NCBI GenBank assembly: GCA_944323675.1
Contig: CALUTK010000006.1
Coordinates: forward strand, 1-45,679
Origin: Candidatus Gastranaerophilales bacterium
GTDB lineage: Bacteria > Cyanobacteriota > Vampirovibrionia > Gastranaerophilales > Gastranaerophilaceae
Direction of reading: 5' to 3'
DNA length: 45,679 nt
Positions 4,719-19,891 of this stretch are shown piece by piece. The notes under the pieces are model-generated. The model was not told the origin of the DNA and ran no database searches. It worked only from the letters and a program-made list of their open reading frames with translations. Every line of letters starts with the position of its first letter. Position 1 is the first letter of the stretch. The position numbers and the translations under genes are program-made.

Positions 4719-6033
4719 TCTTACGCTCAAACACCTTTAAAAAAGTAAACAGATAATATTTTCTGGTATTATAATTATCAATTATCTTTATTACAGGGAA
4801 TTTTTTAAATAAAAAATAATTCAAAATTCCATAATCAACATTCACTTCAAAGATTGTAAATGTACCGACACGTATTTTATAGCTGCCTTTTATAAATATA
4901 TTTTTTTCTTTTTGCGGATATCTGTATTTAATATCATTAAGAGAATTCAGCTGTGGAATACCTGCACGTTTTAATCTGTGTGGAATTTCTGATACTGTGG
5001 CACAAAACGCATCAATTTCCCTACTTTTACCAACATAAAAACGTAAAGACTTAAATTCTTCAGGAACAGCTATATCAGTGTCTTTATATAAGAAAACCTC
5101 ACAATCATTTCTTTTTGAAATTTGAGTTAATAAATTTTTAGTACTTATATCAGAAAAAGCTCCTATAGGGAAAAGCACATTAATTTTTCTCGGTCTTGGA
5201 ATTATATCTAAGTCACTCTTATTACCTGATTTTGATGTTAAATTATTTTTCATTTTTAAAGCCAAATCAGGATAAACATCTTTTCTAATTTTCGTTAGCA
5301 AAGTATTTTTTATAGATTTTAAATGGTCAATATTATCAGCTTCTTTTTCTGAAATTCCATATCTTGAAATTAAGTGCCTGCGTATAGAATTGCGCCGTTC
5401 TATATACGATAGATCTGTTTCCATAGTCGAAACTCCAATCATACGATATGAAGCAAAATTCAGTGGAACATAAACACCATTTGCACCATCCAAAATCAGA
5501 TTCAGAACAAAATCGTAGTCCGCAGCACTTTTTAAATCAGCATCAAAGTGAACCAAATTTGTTTTTGTAAACATAGTTTGATGACAAAATGGCATCCAAA
5601 CAAAAAACGTTTCAATTGTCGGATACAAATAACCCAAAAATTCATCTTGACCATCTAAACAAACACACGGAGCATAGGAAAAATCGGCATTATTTTCTTC
5701 CAGAGCATTCACACTAACTTCAACAGCTCTATTATCGTGCCAGAAGTCATCGGAATTCAAAAATGCAATGTATTTACCATTAGCATGTGCAACCCCCTTA
5801 TTCATAGCATCATAAATACCGCTATCCGGTTCAGAATAAACTTTCAGCCACGGATAATCTTTAAAAATTTCTAAAGTTCCGTCCGATGACGCTCCGTCAA
5901 TAATTATATGTTCTATATTCGGGTAAGTTTGATTTTTTACAGACTCAATACACTGCCGTACAAATTTTTCCCGTCCATCTTTTATTAAATTATATGTTAT
6001 TGTTACTACTGTGACTAATGGTAATGTGCTCAT
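4711..6033 (-). CDS. Family 2 glycosyltransferase with C-terminal extension
   Basis: A 440-residue protein with a WcaA-like GT2 domain in the first ~250 residues: LPLVTVVTITYN, IIIDGASSDGT and the NSDD metal motif. About 190 further residues contain a sequence (KINVLFPIGAFSD onward) that resembles the start of a second Rossmann-like domain. The start is set at ATG 6033: GGAGG sits 5 nt upstream, and the ATG overlaps the TGA of the upstream GT4 gene (ATGA), a classic coupling. The longer frame from 6048 lacks such a site. The C-terminal region has no recognised function and could be a partial second transferase domain. Confidence 0.83.
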   Translation of the reverse strand: MSTLPLVTVVTITYNLIKDGREKFVRQCIESVKNQTYPNIEHIIIDGASSDGTLEIFKDYPWLKVYSEPDSGIYDAMNKGVAHANGKYIAFLNSDDFWHDNRAVEVSVNALEENNADFSYAPCVCLDGQDEFLGYLYPTIETFFVWMPFCHQTMFTKTNLVHFDADLKSAADYDFVLNLILDGANGVYVPLNFASYRMIGVSTMETDLSYIERRNSIRRHLISRYGISEKEADNIDHLKSIKNTLLTKIRKDVYPDLALKMKNNLTSKSGNKSDLDIIPRPRKINVLFPIGAFSDISTKNLLTQISKRNDCEVFLYKDTDIAVPEEFKSLRFYVGKSREIDAFCATVSEIPHRLKRAGIPQLNSLNDIKYRYPQKEKNIFIKGSYKIRVGTFTIFEVNVDYGILNYFLFKKFPVIKIIDNYNTRKYYLFTFLKVFERKIK

Positions 6034-7184
6034 ACATGCCTCCAGCATTCAAGTATAGGTTCAAAATTATCAAACATCTCAATTGTATTTTTCAAATAAT
6101 TTTCTGTTGAATAAATTAATGCCAGTTCCTTCCCTGATTTAATTAAATCTTTACTGTATCCATTATTCTTGATAGAAATAATTTTTTCCGCAAGTTCTTT
6201 TTCATCAAGAGGATTGAAAAATATACAATTATCCTTGAGTTGAATTCTATGCCCTGAAATATCTGATACAATCACAGGGCAGTCAAGAGCCATGGCCTCA
6301 AGTGGCGGCAGATTATCAGGGCCTAAAAATGACGCATATACTAATGCCAGTGTATTTTTATATAACGCAATAATCTGCTCTTTGGTGATAAATCCTGCAA
6401 ATACAATTTCTTTTTCAAGGTCGAACTCTTTAACTTTTTGTTTTAAATAATTTAAATTTCCCTTGTCCGAACCTGAAAAGACAGCTTTTAAATTTATTCC
6501 GCGTTCTTTTAAGATTTTTATAGTTTTTATAATTCTAATATGATTTTTATGAGCCCAAAATTGAGCCGGGTAAAATATAAATTCGTTTTTTGTCAAATTT
6601 AAATTTTTAATAATTTTATCATCAGCTTCTGTATTAAAAATATAATCAGGCGTCGGAAGTGAATTTATGAAAACTTTATCCTCACTTAAACCATAATAAT
6701 TACAAGTCTTTATTTTTGCATCGAGATTTCCTACTATTACTTTAGAAGCCTTACTTATAATATGCTTATACATTAGTTCCCTATTTTTAAAGATACCATT
6801 AGCTGAAACTTCAGGAAAATATGGAATATCTTTATGCCCATAATCCCATACTGTAATAAAAGTAGGACAATCAACATCTATATATTCAGGACAAAGAGTA
6901 TAAAGCACATCTATATTATACTTTTCCAGAAAATGTTTTAGCAACCCTTTTTTCTTTCGAATCTTCCAAAATAATACACGCTTATGAGTTTCCTGAGAAC
7001 CAAGTCGGATAAACTTCACTCGTTCTGAATCATTGAATAGCAATGAACACTCCGCCTGATAAAAAACATAAAATTGATGTCTGCTCTTGGAGTTTATTAA
7101 TGCATTAAGAAAAGTTGACATAAAAGTATACCCACCACCAGCAGTAGGGACTTGCATTTTACTGATATATATTGCTATTTTCAT
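6030..7184 (-). CDS. Family 4 (GT-B) glycosyltransferase
   Basis: 384-residue GT-B glycosyltransferase. The N-terminus MKIAIYISKMQVPTAGGGYT contains the glycine-rich acceptor-side loop of GT4. The C-terminal domain has YPAQFWAHKNH at the position of the usual PRKN motif, and DNLPPLEAMALDCPVIVS with the donor-binding E-x7-E region slightly altered. AAAGGAG lies 7 nt before the ATG. It is translationally coupled (ATGA) to the downstream GT2 gene at 6033. The two are probably sequential transferases in one repeat-unit assembly line; sugars are unknown. Confidence 0.86.
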   Translation of the reverse strand: MKIAIYISKMQVPTAGGGYTFMSTFLNALINSKSRHQFYVFYQAECSLLFNDSERVKFIRLGSQETHKRVLFWKIRKKKGLLKHFLEKYNIDVLYTLCPEYIDVDCPTFITVWDYGHKDIPYFPEVSANGIFKNRELMYKHIISKASKVIVGNLDAKIKTCNYYGLSEDKVFINSLPTPDYIFNTEADDKIIKNLNLTKNEFIFYPAQFWAHKNHIRIIKTIKILKERGINLKAVFSGSDKGNLNYLKQKVKEFDLEKEIVFAGFITKEQIIALYKNTLALVYASFLGPDNLPPLEAMALDCPVIVSDISGHRIQLKDNCIFFNPLDEKELAEKIISIKNNGYSKDLIKSGKELALIYSTENYLKNTIEMFDNFEPILECWRHV

Positions 7185-9702: not shown

Positions 9703-10630
9703 TCAATTGAGCCAATCCTGCCTCATAACAGTCTCACGCAATTTCCTTGATACGGTTAATCTTAAATCATATTTGAATCGGCTAAAATAGTAATGCGCAT
9801 ACGCTTCAGCACGACGTATTTTAAATTCTTTACTTTTTCTATAAAATCTAAGTAACGCATAAAACCAACGTTCAGATGATTTATGTAAATATATCAATGA
9901 GTTCTATAAAAGTTTATTAGAAGTAGGGTTTTCTGCCCAATAATAGGTATAAGAATCACAATTACCCTGATTTGCTAGGCGTTTATTTAGATAAGCCTGT
10001 GTCATTCGTGAAGGAGGAATCATATGTTCTATAACAGAATTTCCTACATATGCAAACTTATATCCCAAGTTCTTTATTTTTATATTAAGGCCGGTTTCAC
10101 CATCACCTATCCATTCACCAGCCGTGTTTTCAGGATTAAAACCACCGCTTAGAAAAAATACATTTTTGCGCAACATCTGATGGCAACTAAAAACGCCTAT
10201 GTCATCTTCTGATATAATAGTTTCATTGCCTAAATCATTCAAACTAAGCCAACCATTCATTAAATTTTCTTTTACCCAAACAGGAGGTTCTATCTCCCAT
10301 TTTGGAGTAAATAAACACAACATCTTCATCTATATATTTAATATTTTTGCCGGAAATATCCGGTTCAGCTCCTATATACCAATCTTCAATGTTTATACTA
10401 AATTCACAATTTTCTCTCTTTTGAAGCGATGATTTGACAAATTTAAACGCTTCATCGACAACGCCACCATACATACAGCGTTCGTTTTGACCAGAAGAAC
10501 CACGCACAAGTGGACAAATAATACCATGCGGAACAGTCTCAACGCTCAAATCATCAAGTTTATGAATAGGCTTTTTGCTCAATTTGTCAAATTTATTAAT
10601 CATTTTTTCAGCGCAATAATACATATTCAT
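9703..10630 (-). pseudogene. Decayed family 2 glycosyltransferase
   Basis: Three consecutive minus-strand pieces make one GT2-like protein. The first (10630 to about 10312) runs through GAEPDISGKNIKYIDEDVVF. The reading frame then shifts at about 10309-10314, where an extra A in TTTATTT would separate DEDVVF from TPKWEIEPP. The second piece carries typical GT2 C-terminal blocks: HQMLRKNVFFLSGGFNPE, GDGETGL and IPPSRMTQAYLNKR. An in-frame TAG at 9904-9906 then interrupts it, and the sequence continues in the same frame to 9703. The canonical N-terminal start of a GT2 domain is missing as well. Two independent lesions plus the missing start argue for a pseudogene; a sequencing error could explain only one of them. 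Confidence 0.75.
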
Positions 10631-10680: not shown

Positions 10681-10852
10681 ATGCATCAAAATACTTATTT
10701 TGGTGTATTAATCTACAGAGCTTTGTAATAGCTGAATTTCATTATTAAAATTAAAGACCTTGTGGGCTTTAAATATTGCTTTTAGTGGTTCTTTTTGGTA
10801 AACTATTCTTGTTAAATTTGTACAATACACCAAAATAAGTATTTTGATGCAT
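10681..10852. promoter_or_regulatory. Putative invertible segment with 29-bp perfect inverted repeats
   Basis: Bases 10681-10709 and 10824-10852 are perfect reverse complements, 114 bp apart. Each arm is itself a dyad: 13 bp (ATGCATCAAAATA), a 2-bp centre (CT), then 13 bp whose reverse complement matches 11 of 13. The centre dinucleotide is asymmetric. This is the geometry of serine DNA-invertase crossover sites (hix/gix type). The segment lies between the divergent GT2 pseudogene and the radical SAM gene. A TACAAT at 10821-10826 straddles the inner edge of the right arm and would be altered by inversion. A minus-strand frame inside the segment ends in TAA at the left arm. No recombinase gene is in the window. 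A small MITE with 29-bp ends is the alternative, though no target duplication is visible. Confidence 0.6.
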
Positions 10853-10870
10853 TTATTGAAAGGGGTAAAA

Positions 10871-12139
10871 ATGACATTTGTAAACAACAACGCACCTGAA
10901 GCTCTTGTTGAACTTTGTAAAAAATGGGATGAGGAAAATAAAATATTTTATCTTGGTCCAGAAAATATATTTTTATACAACAATGCCCCTGTAAACTATT
11001 ATGGTGCAGATAATGTATCAAGAGAATGCGGAGAATGGAATATACATTCGGAAAACTGTTTAACTCCACCATATCAGTTTTTAAGAAAAGAAGAAATTGA
11101 AGAAATTGCAGAAGCATTTGCTCAAAATACACACCCGCAAAACGCAACACTTTTTCTCGGGAATAAATGCTGTAGCCGATGTTTTATGTGCTGGTATCAT
11201 GGAGAAGATACCAGTTACTACAACGAATATTTAAAAGACGAGCAGGTGCAAGTAGATTTTAATACGGCAAAAGAATGGATAGATAAACTATGTGAAGCCG
11301 GAATTGAAAATATAAGTATTGCATCAAACGGCGAGACTCTAATGCTCCCATATTGGGAAGAGTTAATGAGATATACTGCGAAAAAAGGGCTAACACAATA
11401 TTTTATTACTAATGGAATGTTTTTTACGGAAGAGGTTGCTAAAAAGTTAAAAGAAATTGGTAATATAACATGCGCAGAAGTAAGCATACATGGAACTGAT
11501 TTTGAAACATGGAGTAAAGTTACAAGAATTAAAAATAAAAAACTATTTGAAAATGTTATTAATACACCACTTTTAATGAAAAAATATGTTACAGATAATG
11601 TTTACATTGCTTTTGTTAAAACAGAAAGAAACATTCACAATTTTAAAGAATTTTTGGACTTTTGGGTACCGAAAGGGTTTCACATAACATCAAAATATAA
11701 ACTAACAGATAATGATATACCTGGAAATAACTATTACAAGCAATTTAATGAGCCTTGCGGATTATGTGCAAATTTATATGGCAATTTATATGTGATGCCT
11801 TCAGGAAAAGTTATTCCTTGTGGAGGTTATTATTTTTGCGGGAATATTAATCCGGATTTTTATAAGAATCTACCAAATATTAAAGATTTAACTCCAGAAA
11901 ATCTCAAAAATTTTAATAAAAGAAAAATTTCTAATACACAAAGATTAGTTTGCTCTGAATGTTTTAATTATTACAGAAGGAATATATCAATTACAAAAAC
12001 TGTGTATGGTTACCCCGCTACATGCGATGGCGTATCTGATAGAATAGCACTCAATCTCAAGAAAAAGAAAACAATTAAACAACGAATTAAAAATGAATAT
12101 AATAGTGCTAAAAAGAAATTAACAAGATTACTTAAATAA
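10871..12139 (+). CDS. Radical SAM protein with SPASM-type C-terminal domain
   Basis: 422-residue iron-sulfur enzyme. C100-x3-C104-x2-C107 (NKCCSRCFMCW) is the radical SAM [4Fe-4S] motif. ASNGETLMLPYWEELM and FITNGM are typical barrel strands. The C-terminal CGLCANLYGNLYVMPSGKVIPCGG and the late CSEC resemble auxiliary-cluster (SPASM/twitch) cysteines. The substrate is unknown; such proteins in polysaccharide loci may modify sugars or small peptides. The start is ATG 10871, preceded by GAAAGGGG; the frame extends upstream into the inverted repeat. Expression could depend on the orientation of the 10681-10852 segment. Its 3' end overlaps convergent pseI by 12 bp. Confidence 0.83.
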   Translation: MTFVNNNAPEALVELCKKWDEENKIFYLGPENIFLYNNAPVNYYGADNVSRECGEWNIHSENCLTPPYQFLRKEEIEEIAEAFAQNTHPQNATLFLGNKCCSRCFMCWYHGEDTSYYNEYLKDEQVQVDFNTAKEWIDKLCEAGIENISIASNGETLMLPYWEELMRYTAKKGLTQYFITNGMFFTEEVAKKLKEIGNITCAEVSIHGTDFETWSKVTRIKNKKLFENVINTPLLMKKYVTDNVYIAFVKTERNIHNFKEFLDFWVPKGFHITSKYKLTDNDIPGNNYYKQFNEPCGLCANLYGNLYVMPSGKVIPCGGYYFCGNINPDFYKNLPNIKDLTPENLKNFNKRKISNTQRLVCSECFNYYRRNISITKTVYGYPATCDGVSDRIALNLKKKKTIKQRIKNEYNSAKKKLTRLLK

Positions 12140-13138
12140 ACAATTAAGTGATAAAGGAGTCCCTCTCAATATATCGCAGAGGGATTTTTTACCGAGTAAT
12201 TGACTATAATATTTTGGATGCAAGCCGTTTCCAGGTCTTATTGCTCGAATATTTTCTTCTGTAAAAATTTCACCTTTCTTTATATCTTTTACTGCATATA
12301 GTGAACGCGCAAAGGTTCGATTTTTTATGTTATAAGAATAATTAACAGCTCCCAAGGCTTTTTCTGCTGTTCTGACAGCTTTTACCATAGAAGAAAACTC
12401 TTCCGGATTAAGAGAAAAGCCACAATCGGCACCGCCTAAGGATCTATCCAGCGTAAAATGTTTTTCAATAACGGTAGCACCAAGCGCCACCGCACAAATA
12501 GGCGGTTCTATATTCATTGAATGATCAGATAAACCGACATTTACCCCAAGCTTGCCAAATCGATCAATCATATCTTTTATTGTAATTAAATTCATATCTT
12601 CAATTCGTGCAGGATATGCTGAGGTACACTTTAAAATTGTTAAATCTCTGTTTCCAGCAGAAAAACAAACGTCAATGGCAGCCTGAATTTCTTCTAAATC
12701 AGAAACGCCTACCGAAATAATCATAGGTTTATTTTTTGAAGCAGCATATTTAATTAACTCATAATCCATAGCTTCAAAACTTGCTATTTTATATCGAGGA
12801 ACATTTATTGATTCCAGAAAATCAACCGCAGTTTTATCAAAAGGGGTTGAGAAAAACTCTATACCAACTTCATCTGCATATTGTTTAAGTTCACCCTGCC
12901 ACTCCCAAGGGGTATACGCTTCTTTATATAAATCATAAAGATATTTACCATCCCAAAGAGTACCGCCATTAATTTTAAAATTATCATTTTTACAATCAAT
13001 AGTCATAGTATCGGCTGTATACGTCTGGACTTTTACAGCATCCGCACCACAATCTTTTGCTTTCTTTATAATTTTTTTAGCTAACTCTTTATCTCCGCAA
13101 TGATTTGCAGACATTTCCGCAATTATATACGTATGCAT
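12128..13138 (-). CDS. pseI: Pseudaminic acid synthase
   Basis: 336-residue NeuB-family enzyme that condenses phosphoenolpyruvate with a 6-deoxy-diamino-altrose to give pseudaminic acid. The N-terminal TIM barrel has KVQTYTADTMT, then DLYKEAYTPWEWQ and FFSTPFDKTAVDFLE, which are characteristic of PseI rather than NeuB. It also has KCTSAYPA, GLSDHS and the metal and PEP region VIEKHFTLDR. Residues from about 280 form the antifreeze-like SAF domain (RSLYAVKDIKKGE). A GAGAGG ribosome site precedes ATG 13138. It is the last gene of the pse operon. An intrinsic terminator for the opposing gene lies inside its 3' end. Confidence 0.92.
   Translation of the reverse strand: MHTYIIAEMSANHCGDKELAKKIIKKAKDCGADAVKVQTYTADTMTIDCKNDNFKINGGTLWDGKYLYDLYKEAYTPWEWQGELKQYADEVGIEFFSTPFDKTAVDFLESINVPRYKIASFEAMDYELIKYAASKNKPMIISVGVSDLEEIQAAIDVCFSAGNRDLTILKCTSAYPARIEDMNLITIKDMIDRFGKLGVNVGLSDHSMNIEPPICAVALGATVIEKHFTLDRSLGGADCGFSLNPEEFSSMVKAVRTAEKALGAVNYSYNIKNRTFARSLYAVKDIKKGEIFTEENIRAIRPGNGLHPKYYSQLLGKKSLCDILRGTPLSLNCLFK
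12160..12190 (+). terminator. Intrinsic terminator of the radical SAM gene, inside pseI
   Basis: The stem TCCCTCT (12160-12166) pairs with AGAGGGA (12178-12184), followed by a T run, 20 bp after the radical SAM stop codon. It sits within the coding 3' end of convergent pseI, so those codons serve two purposes. Confidence 0.7.
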
Positions 13139-13225
13139 AAAATACCTCTCTTATTGAGAATAACATAAAATATCTAAATAATCTGCCTTATTAACTTAAA
13201 ATTTTCACTAAAATCCAAAGTTTAC

Positions 13226-14167
13226 TCATTTATACAAAATAAATTCATCATACATTCTATAAAACTCGACAGGTTTTGCTTCTTCCTCGTATTTATCAAT
13301 TTCTTCATCACAAAAATCTTGAATGCTCCAAATTAAATCCTTAAAATTCAGTTTATGTCTAAATAAGACTGTACTAGAAAAACGAGGATTGATTTCAAAT
13401 ATATAAATGCCACTATCATTCATTCTCAGTTGAACATTTATACTTCCATACAATTCTAAATTTTCAGCAACTTTTACTAATAAAGTCTCTATCCTAGCAT
13501 CATGTATCAGTGCTCCATGCCCTGTAATACCTCCTTGTAATTCACGTTTAAATATTATAGTTCTTATACCCTTATCTCTGCCTCTATACACACCACACGT
13601 ATACTCATCACCTGAAATATATTGTTGAGCAATGTAACCAGGAAACTTTGCTGAATAAAAATTAAAATCCTCTTCATTTTCTGCAATAAATGTTGCTTTA
13701 TTACCACAACCGATTGGATTTTTAATTATACAAGGATACGAATATGGCTTTTTACCAGACTTAATTTTAATTGTCCTAGGATAAGAAAGTCTATTATTTT
13801 TTAAGAATTGAATAGTTGCATATTTATCAAATCCAATTTCAGTAGCCTTCTGTGAAGCCATTAAAATTTGAGCATTTAATATATTCCTAATTCGGTTTTT
13901 ACTAAAATAACGTAATTCAGCTTCTGAAAGAGGAATTATCAAATCAAGACTATATTTCTTCACTAAATTTTCTAATGCTGTCAAATAACTATCTTCTGAC
14001 GCTTTAGGCAAAATTTCAAAAATTTTGCATATATGTGCGCCTGGATTATTAGAAGAGATATCACTACAAATCAAATTATTGATAAAATTTTGTTCCCGTA
14101 AGATTTTATATACAGAAAAACCAATATCTCCACCTATTGCTGTCAATAATATATTTAAACTTTTCAT
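13226..14167 (-). CDS. ATP-grasp (CarB-like) enzyme of the pse operon
   Basis: 313-residue ATP-grasp protein. An N-terminal pre-ATP-grasp Rossmann part (LLTAIGGDIGFSVYKIL) is followed by the ATP-grasp core: YPCIIKNPIGCGNKATF (lysine and glycine-rich loop), QQYISGDEYTCGVY, and the metal-binding end IFEINPRFSST. ATP-grasp enzymes join carboxylates to amines or other nucleophiles. In nonulosonic acid loci they may decorate the sugar with an acyl or aminoacyl group; the actual substrate here is unknown. The ATG overlaps the stop of the upstream SDR by 1 nt, so translation is coupled. The DNA is very AT-rich. Confidence 0.75.
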   Translation of the reverse strand: MKSLNILLTAIGGDIGFSVYKILREQNFINNLICSDISSNNPGAHICKIFEILPKASEDSYLTALENLVKKYSLDLIIPLSEAELRYFSKNRIRNILNAQILMASQKATEIGFDKYATIQFLKNNRLSYPRTIKIKSGKKPYSYPCIIKNPIGCGNKATFIAENEEDFNFYSAKFPGYIAQQYISGDEYTCGVYRGRDKGIRTIIFKRELQGGITGHGALIHDARIETLLVKVAENLELYGSINVQLRMNDSGIYIFEINPRFSSTVLFRHKLNFKDLIWSIQDFCDEEIDKYEEEAKPVEFYRMYDEFILYK

Positions 14168-14832
14168 TATATTAACCGTCCTTTTATATAAGATTCAAAA
14201 ATATCGTAAGCCACTTCGTCCGGGGATTTTAATTTACAGTTGCTTTTAAGTTGTTTAAAATAGCTTAAATCTTTAAAATTTGATTTTCTAATAATTGCCT
14301 GCATATTTGTATCCATAACACCTGGATCAATATGTATAATATTAATATTATTTTCTAAATCTAATACATTCAAAAACATTTTTAAACCTGCTTTAGTTGA
14401 ACAATATAAACTCCAATTATCAATAACCTTATTGTCTGCACCAGTAGAAATATTAATAACCGTCAATAACCTAGGGCGTGATTTCATAATCTGGTTTATT
14501 ATTAATGCAGGCGCGATGAAATTCAAATCTATGACATTTATAATGTCTTCAGCGGGAATATTGGCAATTTTCTCAATAGGATTTATTTTAGAAGCATTAT
14601 TTATAAATAAAACATTATCTTCAAAATGGATATCACTTAAAGCATTTATTGTTTCACTACTATCAGACAAATCAACTTTAATCAAATGTAAATTTTCCAC
14701 ATTACTTTCATCTGAATACTGTTCAGGAAGAAATCTTCTTGATAAAGCCACTAAATTAACATTTTGAGTTTTTAATATATTATATAAAGCCAATCCCAAC
14801 CCTTGAGAAGTTCCTGTTAATATTACTTGCAT
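14167..14832 (-). CDS. Short-chain dehydrogenase/reductase
   Basis: 221-residue classical SDR with the cofactor loop TGTSQGLG (7-14), NNAS, ISTGA and the catalytic Y-x3-K in LYCSTKAG. Shape and position recall PtmA-type SDRs of flagellar-sugar loci, but the reaction cannot be named. It overlaps the upstream TIM-barrel gene by 10 bp and the downstream ATP-grasp gene by 1 nt, in one minus-strand transcription unit. The codons are rich in AAT, ATA and TTA, more AT-rich than the housekeeping genes at the right of the window. Confidence 0.8.
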   Translation of the reverse strand: MQVILTGTSQGLGLALYNILKTQNVNLVALSRRFLPEQYSDESNVENLHLIKVDLSDSSETINALSDIHFEDNVLFINNASKINPIEKIANIPAEDIINVIDLNFIAPALIINQIMKSRPRLLTVINISTGADNKVIDNWSLYCSTKAGLKMFLNVLDLENNINIIHIDPGVMDTNMQAIIRKSNFKDLSYFKQLKSNCKLKSPDEVAYDIFESYIKGRLI

Positions 14833-15596
14833 ATTATCCCTTTCAAAAAATTAGCATCATTATAAAAATCCGATAAAAGAATTTTACTATTTTTTCTTGT
14901 TTCAATAGTAATATTTTTGTCGTCATCAATTATATTTAATATTCTTGTAAAATCAAAATTTCCATCTCCAAAGTGTAAATGTCTATCTGTAATACTACTA
15001 GAATCATTATCTGAAAAATGATAACACTCGGGATTGAATTTATCATTATATTCTTTTATATATGAATAGATATCTTTATTAAGATAGTTGGCTGTACATA
15101 TCGCATGCCCTATATCTAGACAAAAACCACAATTTACTTTCTTTATTATTTTATCAATTTCTTCAATAGTAGCACCTCTACATATTTTGTTACCTATTGG
15201 GGATATATAAGGTTTATTTTCAATTAAAAGTTTAGTTTTAAAATTTTTCTTAATTAAATTTAACTGCCTGATTGTTTCCTCAATATAGCCTTCAATGCCG
15301 CCATGAATGACAACATATATTGCACTTAAACTTTCAGCATATTTCTGTACTTGTTTATATATTTCTAAATTATATTTTTCATTTTCCTTACTTGCCAAAT
15401 TTACCTGATGAATAATATAGGGGGCATGCAATGAGAAAGGAATCCCTAAGCTTTTCCATCTAGCAATTTTATCAAGCGTATCTGGTACAATATAAAGTTC
15501 TATATAATCAAATACACCAGCATTATATAAACGTTTTGCCTCATCATAATAATAATCTGTATTTATTGACCATAGTTTTAACCCAATTTTATGCAT
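14823..15596 (-). CDS. Sugar phosphate isomerase/epimerase-like TIM barrel (copy 1)
   Basis: 257-residue AP-endonuclease-2/xylose-isomerase-like barrel. Candidate metal ligands are in VVIHGGIEG, LLIENKPY, CLDIGHA and DRHLHFGDG, with a final TIETR. It is a close paralogue of the protein at 16355-17119: both open GLKLWSINTD and share IHGGI-G, IENKP and GFCLD-GHAIC-AN. The two copies flank the formyltransferase gene. The start ATGCATAA would overlap the stop codon of a frame-shifted, extended formyltransferase (see the G tract). The substrate is unknown. Confidence 0.77.
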   Translation of the reverse strand: MHKIGLKLWSINTDYYYDEAKRLYNAGVFDYIELYIVPDTLDKIARWKSLGIPFSLHAPYIIHQVNLASKENEKYNLEIYKQVQKYAESLSAIYVVIHGGIEGYIEETIRQLNLIKKNFKTKLLIENKPYISPIGNKICRGATIEEIDKIIKKVNCGFCLDIGHAICTANYLNKDIYSYIKEYNDKFNPECYHFSDNDSSSITDRHLHFGDGNFDFTRILNIIDDDKNITIETRKNSKILLSDFYNDANFLKGIICK

Positions 15597-15716
15597 TGCT
15601 TAACGCCTTATGTTTTAAATTATTAATAGAAAAAAGCATATATAATTGACCTATCCGCTCAATACATATGCTTACTATATATTTAAACAGATAAAATACA
15701 ATATTTGTGGCCTTAA

Positions 15717-16373
15717 CTAAGATTGCCCCCCCCCCCCCGATATCCTTAGTATATACTTTTTATTTCTATACACAAAGTATGCAGGGTATCTTTCGTTATC
15801 TACAACTCGCAAAAGATTAAACTGTTCTTTTATCGTTTTATTTATATCCAATTCGCTATCTTTCGGAGTTCGTCTCAAATAAAAACTTTCTTCACCAATT
15901 TGTGGGACAGGTTCAAAATTTTCATAGCTGTTTACAAACTTAAGACACAATTCTATAGTTTTATATCCCAACAAAGCTTGCCACTCCTCAATTAATTCAT
16001 CTCCTTTTAACTTGATTGAATCTTTAAAGTAAATATCTCCTGCATCACACTTTTCGGAAGCCTCAAATAAAGTTATTGGAATGTCATTCTTTCCTTCTAA
16101 TATCTGCCATGTCATAGGAGACCAACCTTTGCCTTTGGGTAAATCGCTCTCATGAACAACAATATTATGTTTATTTTTTGCAAGAAACTCTTTTGTTACA
16201 ATATTAAAACAACTCAAGAAAAAGGCAATATCACCTTCCGGCAACTCTTCCGGTTTCGAAACGCATAATACATTATGTCCAAGTGCTTCCAGCGCATTTT
16301 TTAAGAATACATTATATTTATTCATCCAACTTGTTTTGTCAGTTAATATAGAAATCAGATACTTTTCAGACAT
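15717..16373 (-). CDS. Formyltransferase-family protein, putatively phase-variable
   Basis: 218-residue protein of the 10-formyltetrahydrofolate-dependent formyltransferase fold. Its core is NIVVHESDLPKGKGWSP, ending in CDAGDIY with the expected aspartate. Relative to Fmt or ArnA, the usual Asn two residues before the His is replaced by Val, although an Asn sits four before; I recall this variant from other nonulosonate loci. It probably N-formylates an amino group on the pseudaminic acid precursor. The last codons (ISGGGGQS) are made by a 13-G tract. With the present count the frame stops just after it. One more G would extend the protein about 46 codons, to a TAA overlapping the next gene's ATG. 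Confidence 0.75.
   Translation of the reverse strand: MSEKYLISILTDKTSWMNKYNVFLKNALEALGHNVLCVSKPEELPEGDIAFFLSCFNIVTKEFLAKNKHNIVVHESDLPKGKGWSPMTWQILEGKNDIPITLFEASEKCDAGDIYFKDSIKLKGDELIEEWQALLGYKTIELCLKFVNSYENFEPVPQIGEESFYLRRTPKDSELDINKTIKEQFNLLRVVDNERYPAYFVYRNKKYILRISGGGGQS
15726..15738 (-). repeat. Homopolymeric tract, 13 G on the coding strand
   Basis: Thirteen consecutive C on the plus strand (G on the coding strand) lie in the last codons of the formyltransferase gene, in an otherwise very AT-rich region. Frames after the tract: 13 G gives Q-S-stop; 12 or 15 G gives G-N-L-S-stop; 11 or 14 G stays open for about 46 codons. Tracts of this length are typical slipped-strand phase-variation switches. 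The count itself could vary between cells or be mis-sequenced. Confidence 0.85.
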
Positions 16374-17119
16374 AACATATCCTCAACAAAATCATTTAAA
16401 TTTGATTGACTATCTTTAACAGTTTCAAAAGTTATTATAGCATCATCAGGCAACATTTGCAAAATTTTATTTAGCTCCAACTCCCCCTGTCCAAGATGCG
16501 GATGAGAATCATATTCTGATTTTATATCAGAAATATCAGTTAAATGAAACATCTTTGGCTCTAATTTCATAAAATCTTTAATGTAATCAAAATAATCAAC
16601 ATTTAAACTATTGGCCGCGCAAATTGCATGACCGAAATCCAAACAAAAACCGCATCCGGAAAACTCCATAACTGTTTTTATTTCTTCAACATTATATCCT
16701 CTGCAGAATTCACCGCCCATCTTATTTGGTAATGCTCGAAATGGTTTATTTTCAATCAAAGCGCGAGAATCTTTTAAGTCAGCTAATTGTTTAGCTGTTT
16801 CATTTATATCCCCGTCAATTCCGCCATGTATAACTATATATGGAACATTTAAACCATCTGCAAATTGTTGCACTTCCATAAATATTTTTTTATTACTTTG
16901 TTTCTTTTCCGCTTTTGCAAGATTAAACCCGTGTGCAAAATGCGGACAATGAATTATAAAAGGGATATTAAGCTTTTGCCAGGTGCTGAGGGTGTCTAAA
17001 GAATCAGGAACAACATATAATTCAATATAGTCAAAAATATTATTATCATAAAGCTTCTTAGCATCTTCATAATAACAATCAGTATTTATTGACCAAAGTT
17101 TTAATCCTCGTTTATTCAT
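16355..17119 (-). CDS. Sugar phosphate isomerase/epimerase-like TIM barrel (copy 2)
   Basis: 254-residue paralogue of the protein at 14823-15596, with the same order of likely ligand motifs: VIHGGIDG, ALIENKPF, GFCLDFGHAICAAN, SHPHLGQGEL and TFETVKD. It overlaps the upstream pseF gene by 8 bp and the downstream formyltransferase gene by 19 bp. Keeping two copies in a compact sugar operon suggests two related reactions rather than redundancy; neither reaction is known. Nothing in the sequence links it to a standard step of pseudaminic acid synthesis. Confidence 0.77.
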   Translation of the reverse strand: MNKRGLKLWSINTDCYYEDAKKLYDNNIFDYIELYVVPDSLDTLSTWQKLNIPFIIHCPHFAHGFNLAKAEKKQSNKKIFMEVQQFADGLNVPYIVIHGGIDGDINETAKQLADLKDSRALIENKPFRALPNKMGGEFCRGYNVEEIKTVMEFSGCGFCLDFGHAICAANSLNVDYFDYIKDFMKLEPKMFHLTDISDIKSEYDSHPHLGQGELELNKILQMLPDDAIITFETVKDSQSNLNDFVEDMLCLKSI

Positions 17120-17804
17120 TATTTAAAACCCTATATTTCAATTCAGCCATTTTCCAGTCATCCAGAGTATCTATATCCTGAATCTGGAGTTCATTCATCG
17201 TATAAAATGTTGTTTTAGACGGAACTAATGTCTTATTCTCTAGAAAACTATCAACATTACCGAAATAAAACATTCCTACATCATGGTACATTGGCTCTAA
17301 ATCCTGAGATCTCGCCTGAGAAAATTCCGGTTCTCTATATTCTATATATTCATCTGAATTAATTTTTAAAGCCCTTTGTATTGGATAAGAAAATCTTACA
17401 ACCGGCATAAGAGCTTCAGCACCGGAAGCAACGAACTTAGTATAGGCATCCTTTAATATAGTCCCAGTTAAAAACGGTACACAAGGATAAATACAACAAA
17501 AATTTTCAAATTCAATATTACGTTTTTTATATTCTGCTAAAACTTCTAATATCACATCTTTAGTTAATGCCATATCGTCTGAATTCTTTTTAGAGCGAAG
17601 AAAAGGTACACTCGCTCCATATTTTTGCGCAATAGAAGATATTTCCTCATCATCAGTCGAAACCATTACTTCTTCAAAAATATCAGAATCTAAAGCAGCT
17701 TGAATTGCATATGCAATCATTGGTTTCCCTGAAAATATTTTTATATTTTTACGTGGGATTCTTTTACTTCCTCCGCGCGCTGTTATTATAGCTATATTGT
17801 TCAT
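17112..17804 (-). CDS. pseF: CMP-pseudaminic acid cytidylyltransferase
   Basis: 230-residue NeuA/PseF/KdsB-fold enzyme that activates the nonulosonic acid with CTP. The N-terminal signature is ITARGGSKRIPRKNIK, then GKPMIAYAIQAAL, VSTDDEEI, and the PseF-like block YREPEFSQARSQDLEPMYHD. It is distinct from the KdsB at 38867. The adjacent pseC, pseB and pseI assign it to pseudaminic rather than sialic acid. Its start overlaps the stop of pseC by 1 nt and its end overlaps the TIM-barrel gene by 8 bp, implying one transcript. Confidence 0.9.
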   Translation of the reverse strand: MNNIAIITARGGSKRIPRKNIKIFSGKPMIAYAIQAALDSDIFEEVMVSTDDEEISSIAQKYGASVPFLRSKKNSDDMALTKDVILEVLAEYKKRNIEFENFCCIYPCVPFLTGTILKDAYTKFVASGAEALMPVVRFSYPIQRALKINSDEYIEYREPEFSQARSQDLEPMYHDVGMFYFGNVDSFLENKTLVPSKTTFYTMNELQIQDIDTLDDWKMAELKYRVLNNE

Positions 17805-18895
17805 TATAATATTCTCTTTATTCTACTTACAATATCTTCTAAATCTTCATTTGTTAAATCCGGATATAAAGGAAGTGAGATACAATGTTCATAGTACTTT
17901 TCTGCATTCGGATAGTCTCCCCATTTATATCCTAACTTTTGATAATAAGGCTGCGTATGCACCGGGATATAATGAACCTGCAAATTTAGCCCAATTTCTT
18001 TTGCCTTATCATAAAAGCTTTTTCTATCTTCTACCAATATTGGATATAAATGAAAACATGCATTTGAATATTCTTTTTCTACAAGATGCGGCAATCTCAA
18101 ATTTCTATTATAATAATCTACAATTTCACGTCTGCGTTTTTTAAATTGTTCCAAACGCTTAATTTGAGAACAGCCTAAAGCTGCTTGGATATCTGTCATT
18201 CGGTAGTTTAAACCTAATTCAACCATGTCATATTTCCAATCTTGAGTATGATGCATTCCATGAGATCTAAAAGCTAAGAGTTTTTTGTATAAAACCTCAT
18301 TATTAGTAGTAACAGCACCACCTTCACCAGTCGTAATTGTTTTGACAGGATGAAACGAAAATACCGTCATATCGGAATACTTACAACTGCCAACTTTTGT
18401 ATCTTTATAATCAGAGCCAATTGCATGAGCCGCATCTTCAATTATATAGACCTTTCTGTCAACAGGAAGTAATTTCTGTATTGCCTCCATATTACAACTT
18501 TGTCCTGCAAAATGAACAGGAACAATGACTTTTGTTTTAGGGGTTAGCTGCTTCTTGATTTCCACAGGATCAATATTAGCAGTTTCAGGTTCTACATCAG
18601 TAAACACAACATTTGCACCACAGTATCTTGCACAATTCGCACTCGCCAAAAATGTCATTGGAGATGTAATCACATCATCATCCCCTCCTATACCAGCTGC
18701 CAGCATAGCAATATGCAGGCCTGATGTTGCTGAATTAACAGCTACGCAATATTTTGCACCAGTATATTCACAGATTGCTTTTTCAAATTCTTTAACTTTT
18801 GGTCCGCAGGTTAAATATGGAGATTGCAAAACGTCTATAACACTTTTAATATCATCTTCTGTAATACTTTGTTTTCCGTAATTATATACTTTCAT
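17804..18895 (-). CDS. pseC: UDP-4-amino-4,6-dideoxy-N-acetyl-L-altrosamine transaminase
   Basis: 363-residue DegT-family PLP enzyme, second step of pseudaminic acid synthesis, aminating C4 of the PseB product. It opens YGKQSITEDDI and LQSPYLTCGPKV, and has NSATSGLHIAM for phosphate binding, EDAAHAIGS, and FSFHPVKTITTGEGG with K185 as the PLP lysine. The length matches PseC. It lies 3 bp after pseB and overlaps pseF by 1 nt. The assignment rests on both motif pattern and operon order. Confidence 0.92.
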   Translation of the reverse strand: MKVYNYGKQSITEDDIKSVIDVLQSPYLTCGPKVKEFEKAICEYTGAKYCVAVNSATSGLHIAMLAAGIGGDDDVITSPMTFLASANCARYCGANVVFTDVEPETANIDPVEIKKQLTPKTKVIVPVHFAGQSCNMEAIQKLLPVDRKVYIIEDAAHAIGSDYKDTKVGSCKYSDMTVFSFHPVKTITTGEGGAVTTNNEVLYKKLLAFRSHGMHHTQDWKYDMVELGLNYRMTDIQAALGCSQIKRLEQFKKRRREIVDYYNRNLRLPHLVEKEYSNACFHLYPILVEDRKSFYDKAKEIGLNLQVHYIPVHTQPYYQKLGYKWGDYPNAEKYYEHCISLPLYPDLTNEDLEDIVSRIKRIL

Positions 18896-18898
18896 ACC

Positions 18899-19891
18899 CT
18901 AAATCTCGCTTATAAGTTTTTTCATTTCCTCTGTGGTAAGCCATCTGTCGTTATTACCGGAATTGTATTCAAAATCATCCGAGACCCTTTTAGCATTCGG
19001 ATATTTATGCTGGATATTATCCATATCAATTTGCGGTAATATTATATAAAAATCCTCATACTCTATGGTATTCGGTGCGTCAGCAGATGTTATCATCTGT
19101 TCATGGATTTTTTCTCCCGGACGGATTCCAACCTCAACTATCTTTTTATCAGGAGCTATAGCTTTTGCCAAATCAGTCATACGCATGGACGGTATTTTTT
19201 TTACATATAATTCTCCACCTTGCATATGTTCTATTGCCTCCAATACCATTTCAACAGCCTGCTCCAATTTCAACCAGAAGCGTGTCATTCTCATATCTGT
19301 AATAGGAAGTTCCGTTGCGCCTTCTGCTACCAGTTTTTTGAAAAATGGAATCACTGAACCGCGGGAACCTGCAACATTACCGTATCTTACAACGGCAAAA
19401 CGAGTATCTTTAAATCCGCAATATGCATTTCCTGCAATAAACAATTTATCTGAACATAATTTAGTTGCACCATAGAGATTTATAGGAGCACATGCCTTAT
19501 CTGTTGACAAGGCAACAACTTTTTTAACACCGCGATCAATAGAGGCTTCAATAATATTTTGTGCACCGAGCACGTTAGTTTTAACTGCTTCAAACGGATT
19601 ATACTCACACGCCGGAACCTGTTTCAAAGCTGCGGCATGCACAACGATATCAACATTTTCAAAAGCTCTCATTAAACGTTCTTTATCTCTTACATCACCT
19701 ATAAAAAACCTCAATTTTTCTTCATGGGGTTTGAATTCAGGCATATTCTGCATGACAAACTGTTTATATTCATCACGGGAAAATACAATCACCTTTTTAA
19801 CATTAGGATATTTCTCAAAAACAGTTTTAATAAACTTTTTTCCAAAACTTCCCGTACCGCCGGTAACCAAAATAGTTTTACCATTTAACAT
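18899..19891 (-). CDS. pseB: UDP-N-acetylglucosamine 4,6-dehydratase (inverting)
   Basis: 330-residue SDR that commits UDP-GlcNAc to pseudaminic acid synthesis by C4 oxidation, C6 dehydration and C5 inversion. It has TGGTGSFGKKF at the nucleotide loop, FSRDEYKQ, HAAALKQVPACEYNP, and the catalytic T130-D131-K132 and Y140-x3-K144. It is first in the minus-strand operon. Its 5' leader contains two strong dyads (19912-19955). A possible -10 (TATAAA) lies near 19963-19968. The GGAAAGG about 12 nt before the ATG is a distant ribosome site. Confidence 0.93.
   Translation of the reverse strand: MLNGKTILVTGGTGSFGKKFIKTVFEKYPNVKKVIVFSRDEYKQFVMQNMPEFKPHEEKLRFFIGDVRDKERLMRAFENVDIVVHAAALKQVPACEYNPFEAVKTNVLGAQNIIEASIDRGVKKVVALSTDKACAPINLYGATKLCSDKLFIAGNAYCGFKDTRFAVVRYGNVAGSRGSVIPFFKKLVAEGATELPITDMRMTRFWLKLEQAVEMVLEAIEHMQGGELYVKKIPSMRMTDLAKAIAPDKKIVEVGIRPGEKIHEQMITSADAPNTIEYEDFYIILPQIDMDNIQHKYPNAKRVSDDFEYNSGNNDRWLTTEEMKKLISEI

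Follow-up and report, generated by a model that had tools for sequence, protein, structure and literature searches.

Inverted repeats and neighboring genes

The window is a 45,679-nt stretch of DNA from a Candidatus Gastranaerophilales bacterium and comprises the whole of contig C6 in a 1.81-Mb assembly that is 95.5% complete. It carries a 172-bp inverted-repeat unit between two surface-sugar genes. A repeat search of the window confirmed the two 29-bp perfect inverted repeats enclosing 114 bp that had been described in an initial annotation. The left arm lies at 10681–10709 and the right arm at 10824–10852 (both listed on the + strand), and the arms are 100% complementary across a 114-nt spacer (10710–10823), which is presumed to be the invertible segment. 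The next longest short-range perfect inverted repeat in the window is 15 bp, and when the window was simulated 60 times under a first-order Markov model, the longest perfect inverted repeat did not exceed 16 bp.

Each arm is itself a dyad that resembles a recombination site. The left-arm dyad (10682–10707) reads TGCATCAAAATA CT TATTTTGGTGTA, giving the 26-bp site TGCATCAAAATACTTATTTTGGTGTA, and the right-arm dyad (10826–10851) reads TACACCAAAATA AG TATTTTGATGCA, giving TACACCAAAATAAGTATTTTGATGCA, the exact inverse of the left. The two half-sites within each arm match at 10 of 12 positions in the 26-bp frame. The asymmetric CT/AG center that had been noted for each arm is indeed present, and the centers of the two arms are identical in inverted orientation. 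The inner half-site is TACACCAAAATA and the outer half-site is TGCATCAAAATA in both arms. The unit is therefore an inverted pair of 26–28-bp dyads with identical central bases. These are TACTTA on the left (10692–10697, + strand) and TAAGTA on the right (10836–10841). Judging from the exchange points in relatives, TACTTA is the putative strand-exchange region of an 11-6-11, Xer-like layout.

How often does the site occur? With up to three mismatches, the arm site is found at two places in the window, namely the two arms, where none is expected. A genome-wide search for further copies, as had been suggested, located CAAAATANNTATTTTG in the two arms, once more as an unpaired site on contig C10, and nowhere else. 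The 211-bp stretch around the unit is single-copy in the genome, and the exact window site has no match among viral contigs.

The right arm is followed by a leader (10853–10870, + strand) with a ribosome-binding-like AAAGGGG, identified by inspection and from the leaders of relatives, ahead of the ATG at 10871. A comparable leader lies downstream of the target-side site in genome G289 and at locus L170. The ATG begins a gene for a 422-aa radical SAM protein (10871–12139, + strand; profile and homolog searches). This is the likely target of a switch. No homolog at E 1e-60 was found in the 287 other family genomes, which were searched for a reversed copy of the locus. On the other side, an ORF of 128 aa (10244–10630, − strand) diverges from the unit, with its start 51 bp outside the left arm, and is a possible alternative recipient in the opposite orientation. 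It overlaps an out-of-frame ORF of 141 aa (9904–10329, − strand) that resembles the remainder of a broken gene. Neither entry in the ORF list has a Pfam or NCBIfam match, and the label “GT2 remnant” given earlier to this side finds no support from either collection at E 0.001. Further along, inspection of the translations from 12128–19891 indicates genes for a synthase, a cytidylyltransferase, an aminotransferase, and a dehydratase. By this reading, the genes around the unit resemble a cluster for a surface glycan of the pseudaminic- or sialic-acid type.

Recombinases in the genome of the window

Which enzyme might act on these sites? The initial annotation likened them to serine-invertase sites such as hix. 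No Resolvase-family (PF00239) protein was found in the genome, and the same family was matched in 10 of 14 control genomes. The hix comparison is thus left without its enzyme, and the site was therefore searched for across the bacterial family. A serine invertase of the Hin/Gin/Mpi kind would fit the outline of a 26-bp dyad with a 2-bp asymmetric center. However, given the missing PF00239 protein, and the small tyrosine recombinase genes that adjoin the motif in relatives (see below), we give hardly any credence to such an enzyme flipping the segment.

The genome does have two strong Phage_integrase matches, of 304 and 306 aa, encoded together on contig C37. These look like XerC and XerD. A profile search of the 95.5% complete assembly returned XerC/XerD-type matches only, and none of the ~181-aa recombinases described below. 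A fragment match on G000:C45 was considered as a small recombinase and rejected, being supported by neither the ORF list of that contig nor the family profile. The unit in the window is called an orphan, rather than a complete member of its family, because the cognate gene is absent from the assembly; it may lie in the missing part. The earlier proposal that the recombinase is encoded elsewhere agrees with the orphan copies in relatives.

Could XerC and XerD act on the sites, as they do on pdif modules, making a dedicated recombinase unnecessary? They are the sole clear tyrosine recombinases of the genome, and the sites fit a dif-like 11-6-11 layout. However, dif-like sites of the family (for example, CCGATAACATATATTATGTTAA in this genome) match the arm at only 12 of 24 positions, and the motif in relatives tracks the small recombinase. 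We consider a role for XerC/XerD improbable. Separately, two dif-like sites lie ~2.5 kb apart in opposite orientation at G011:C7:8271 and 10828, and these are possibly a Xer-dependent element.

Sites and small recombinases across the family

The motif TRCAYCAAAATANNTATTTTGRTGYA, at up to two mismatches, occurs in 29 of 288 family genomes, and a reversed-pattern control gave none. A site lies ~20–250 bp from the gene for a ~181-aa tyrosine recombinase in G110, G135, G222, G271, G216, and G259. By chance alone, only ~0.1% of sites would be expected no farther than 300 bp from a gene of this type. The window site shares 24 of 26 positions with that of G289, an orphan pair, and 22 of 26 with those of G271 and G216, both recombinase-linked, meaning that the window and the recombinase-linked sites have a site sequence in common.

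The small recombinases form a coherent group. Sixteen of them can be aligned end to end, with the catalytic residues R41, H129, R132, H155, and Y164 invariant. The gene occupies L149:821-1366 in G271 and positions 6001-6546 at L170. They match Pfam Phage_integrase, their best NCBIfam models are XerA/XerD, and their nearest solved structures are of the XerA, XerH, and XerD types. Two NCBIfam models for FimB/FimE-type “tyrosine-type DNA invertase” match weakly (44.7 and 48 bits, against a cut-off of ~221). Strong inverted repeats are found within 600 bp after the recombinase gene at 19 of 73 loci from GTDB genomes, as against 9 of 892 control windows (p 2e-16), and on the upstream side at 1 of 75.

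Not every pair of sites has a recombinase beside it. The pairs in G061, G177, and G289 are orphans, distant from any recombinase gene, which makes action in trans plausible. Their core-to-core lengths are 143, 145, and 144 bp, respectively, and that of the window is 144 bp. In G289, the leader beside the pair precedes a gene for a large exported protein and resembles the leader in the window.

Orphan status could also mean that the window holds a stranded relic, i.e. a former switch of the family whose recombinase has been lost and whose segment is locked, serving as an ordinary upstream region if as anything. The lack of a small recombinase in the assembly suits this explanation, as do several species of the same genus that likewise have none, and the weakness of the promoter in the window (see below). 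On the other hand, the arms in the window have kept full identity along all 29 bp, unlike the arms of many other pairs, whose outer halves have drifted apart, and 4.5% of the genome is absent from the assembly. Moreover, site and enzyme go together: at least one small recombinase is present in 198 of the 288 family genomes, with carriage in 26 of the 29 site-bearing genomes versus 172 of the 259 others (p 0.006). We hold a relic to be unlikely, if an outcome to be kept in view.

Some recombinase loci have other arrangements. At L182, L185, L209, L228, and L231, a second ORF of ~175–195 aa with a recombinase-like N-terminus (SPIKxI...IxxI) lies directly downstream of the segment, and the two may perhaps be a FimB/FimE-like pair. 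At L233 and L240, 26-bp perfect inverted repeats enclose the recombinase gene itself, which would place it inside the invertible segment. L278:3001-6000 and L155 have the same layout of recombinase and repeats ahead of a large PLD-domain/SNF2 helicase resembling the helicases of defense systems. Outside the Gastranaerophilales, a relative of the recombinase in Helicobacter sp. 13S00401-1 (L199) is followed by two inverted repeats and by sugar-nucleotide genes. Relatives at ~52% identity include many from Streptococcus phages and more than 2,000 plasmid records.

Opposite orientations in relatives

Both orientations between the same flanks were observed among related genomes for three cassettes, associated with an autotransporter, a glycosyltransferase cluster, and a type IIG restriction-modification system. 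First, G001, G222, and G271 share the order recombinase, site pair, autotransporter region. G001 has the outer flanks and outer half-sites in common with G222/G271, and the inner segment is reversed along with the inner half-sites, as a 172-bp match that is ~97% identical. A promoter-like TTGATA-17-TATTAT faces the recombinase in the G222/G271 arrangement and, after inversion, the autotransporter side in G001. Second, L193 and L195 have flanks that are 98.8% and 97.5% identical, and the 189 bp between them is reversed at 97.4% identity. This segment precedes a heptosyltransferase-type glycosyltransferase cluster. Third, the segment at L286 is reversed relative to L285, L288, and L289, where it lies downstream of the recombinase and ahead of a type IIG restriction-modification methylase. 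We read this cassette as phase-variable defense, with orientations that differ between species. At all three cassettes, the exchange point falls within the common central bases of the sites. We regard site-specific inversion switches of this kind as widespread in the bacterial family.

These inversions also bear on an explanation without recombination, in which the arms would be paired operators or paired, terminator-like RNA hairpins. Each arm is palindromic, and one G061 site with a T-run resembles an intrinsic terminator. However, no terminator-like site was found at the window, and homologous pairs show inversion; we strongly doubt this explanation. The window locus itself is available in one copy, and no reversed copy of it was seen. 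The idea of an invertible switch put forward in the initial annotation is accordingly supported by homologous cassettes found both ways in relatives, but the locus on which it was based is known in one orientation.

Promoters and multicopy units

Several segments in relatives contain a sigma-70-like promoter whose spacing from one of the two sites is constant, and therefore inversion would switch the neighboring gene on or off. The promoter faces outward, and the end of its −10 element lies 28–33 bp from one site center in G001, G271, G289, G061, G177, L155, L170, and L287, and the promoters of these eight segments outscore shuffles of the same segment. The promoter of G001 faces the autotransporter side, and that of G271 faces the recombinase. 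This rule is not general, since 33 of the 42 segments scanned had no promoter above chance in a simple test.

What of the window? Its spacer contains one sigma-70-like site, where 1.7 are expected by chance. The best candidate, TTGTAA-17-TAAAAT (10723–10751, + strand), is directed toward the radical SAM gene but is weak (p 0.155) and off the position conserved in relatives, at which no promoter above chance was found in the window (p 0.35). The hexamer TACAAT, earlier suggested as part of an orientation-dependent promoter, is indeed present at the inner end of the right arm; inspection gave it no −35 partner, and a promoter role for it is not supported.

An extreme of copy number is found in G061, where an inverted-repeat unit of 169 bp is present ~55 times by the site list. 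Almost every unit inspected lies ahead of a pseudopilin gene (FTLAEVLITLGIIG); examples are L062:6503-6671, L062:7053-7221, and L068:1501-1668. In every readable copy (~30), a strong promoter is directed away from the pseudopilin gene, such that no change of orientation is seen in this genome. The site at the opposite end continues directly into a T-run and resembles an intrinsic terminator. At a contig end, the unit G061:C29:17249-17417 (L257) is bordered on each side by one and the same outer flank in inverted orientation, which is either a junction of mixed orientation or an assembly artifact.

In genus g24, single palindromic copies of the motif occur in G158, G283, and G296 (for example, L052, L053, L054, and L057), often right after stop codons and 70–200 bp from a contig end. 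These single sites were kept out of the evidence. The multicopy motif in g24 genomes and G061 is what a MITE, or another element with terminal inverted repeats, might leave behind. The initial annotation had held that dispersed copies with target duplications would make the unit a MITE. In contrast, the unit is present once in its own genome with no visible target duplication, and the repeats of relatives bracket inverting segments at fixed flanks. A MITE is very improbable.

Comparison with known systems

How does the unit compare with known switches? In the fimS element of E. coli, a small (~200 aa) stand-alone tyrosine recombinase, FimB or FimE, acts on a short invertible promoter that controls the type 1 fimbria, and the repeats are 9 bp long. 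The systems in relatives are similar in combining a small tyrosine recombinase with a promoter-bearing invertible segment between inverted repeats, close to surface genes. They differ in that the sites are dyads of 26–28 bp rather than 9-bp repeats, and the recombinases score far below the FimB/FimE model cut-offs and closer to XerA-type models. By model score, the recombinase of relatives does not belong with FimB/FimE, and the genome of the window encodes no such protein; nor is there a recombinase adjacent in the window. FimB/FimE and their invertible promoter have been reviewed (PMC11868660).

Xer/dif recombination is similar in the solved structures closest to the small recombinases (XerA, XerH, and XerD) and in the 11-6-11 layout of the site. 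It differs in that the 181-aa recombinase is without the N-terminal half of a Xer protein, the site sequence is unlike the dif-like sites of the family, and the outcome is local inversion. Hin/hix shares the 26-bp dyad with an asymmetric 2-bp center, but it uses a serine recombinase, and the genome has none (PF00239). The invertible capsule promoters of Bacteroides, where one recombinase serves many sites, and other gut invertons are similar in placing invertible segments by surface-polysaccharide genes in gut bacteria. However, Bacteroides Mpi is a serine recombinase, and the enzyme in relatives here is a tyrosine recombinase. The inverton is already a known kind of element, as thousands have been found by PhaseFinder and PhaVa (reviewed in PMC11868660). 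A literature text search, with most subscription papers outside its reach, found no paper that deals with invertible DNA or phase variation in either Gastranaerophilales or Melainabacteria. Hence, the window unit adds to tyrosine-recombinase invertons, a known kind, in a group for which no published report was found.

Functional implications

We think it likely that the unit in the window is an orphan member of a family-wide set of site-specific inversion switches of the ~181-aa tyrosine recombinase type. It probably serves for on/off control (phase variation), with its recombinase encoded elsewhere or lost. The sites, their kinship with those of relatives, and the inversion of homologous cassettes there are observed; for this genome, we infer the identity of the recombinase, its current activity, the promoter, and the target. 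In the proposed mechanism, two inverted 26–28-bp dyad sites flank a segment of ~115 bp, and a FimB-sized, Xer-related tyrosine recombinase (~181 aa) would exchange strands in the central bases and flip the segment. In relatives, the flip would turn a promoter toward or away from the adjacent surface or defense gene. In the genome of the window, the radical SAM gene that starts at 10871 would be the likely target and the divergent ORF starting at 10630 a possible alternative, and the orphan switch would either be worked in trans or have been recently stranded.

What would follow from action in trans? Conceivably, a single small tyrosine recombinase serves numerous orphan switches scattered over the genome, such that a whole set of surface genes undergoes phase variation jointly in an uncultured gut lineage. 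We offer this tentatively, as a possibility that is on balance doubtful. If it is true, the segment in the window would be a two-sided toggle between the radical SAM gene and a divergent gene, in a glycan cluster of the nonulosonic-acid type, and G061, with its ~55 pseudopilin switches, would represent the extreme.

The small recombinases allow a direct in vitro test. Natural inversion is visible among published genomes at three loci, and therefore orientation could be scored in existing metagenomes without culture. The cassettes precede autotransporters, glycosyltransferases, pseudopilins, and a restriction-modification system. The findings point to site-specific DNA inversion as a system at work in the gut Gastranaerophilales, of which hardly any members have been cultured.
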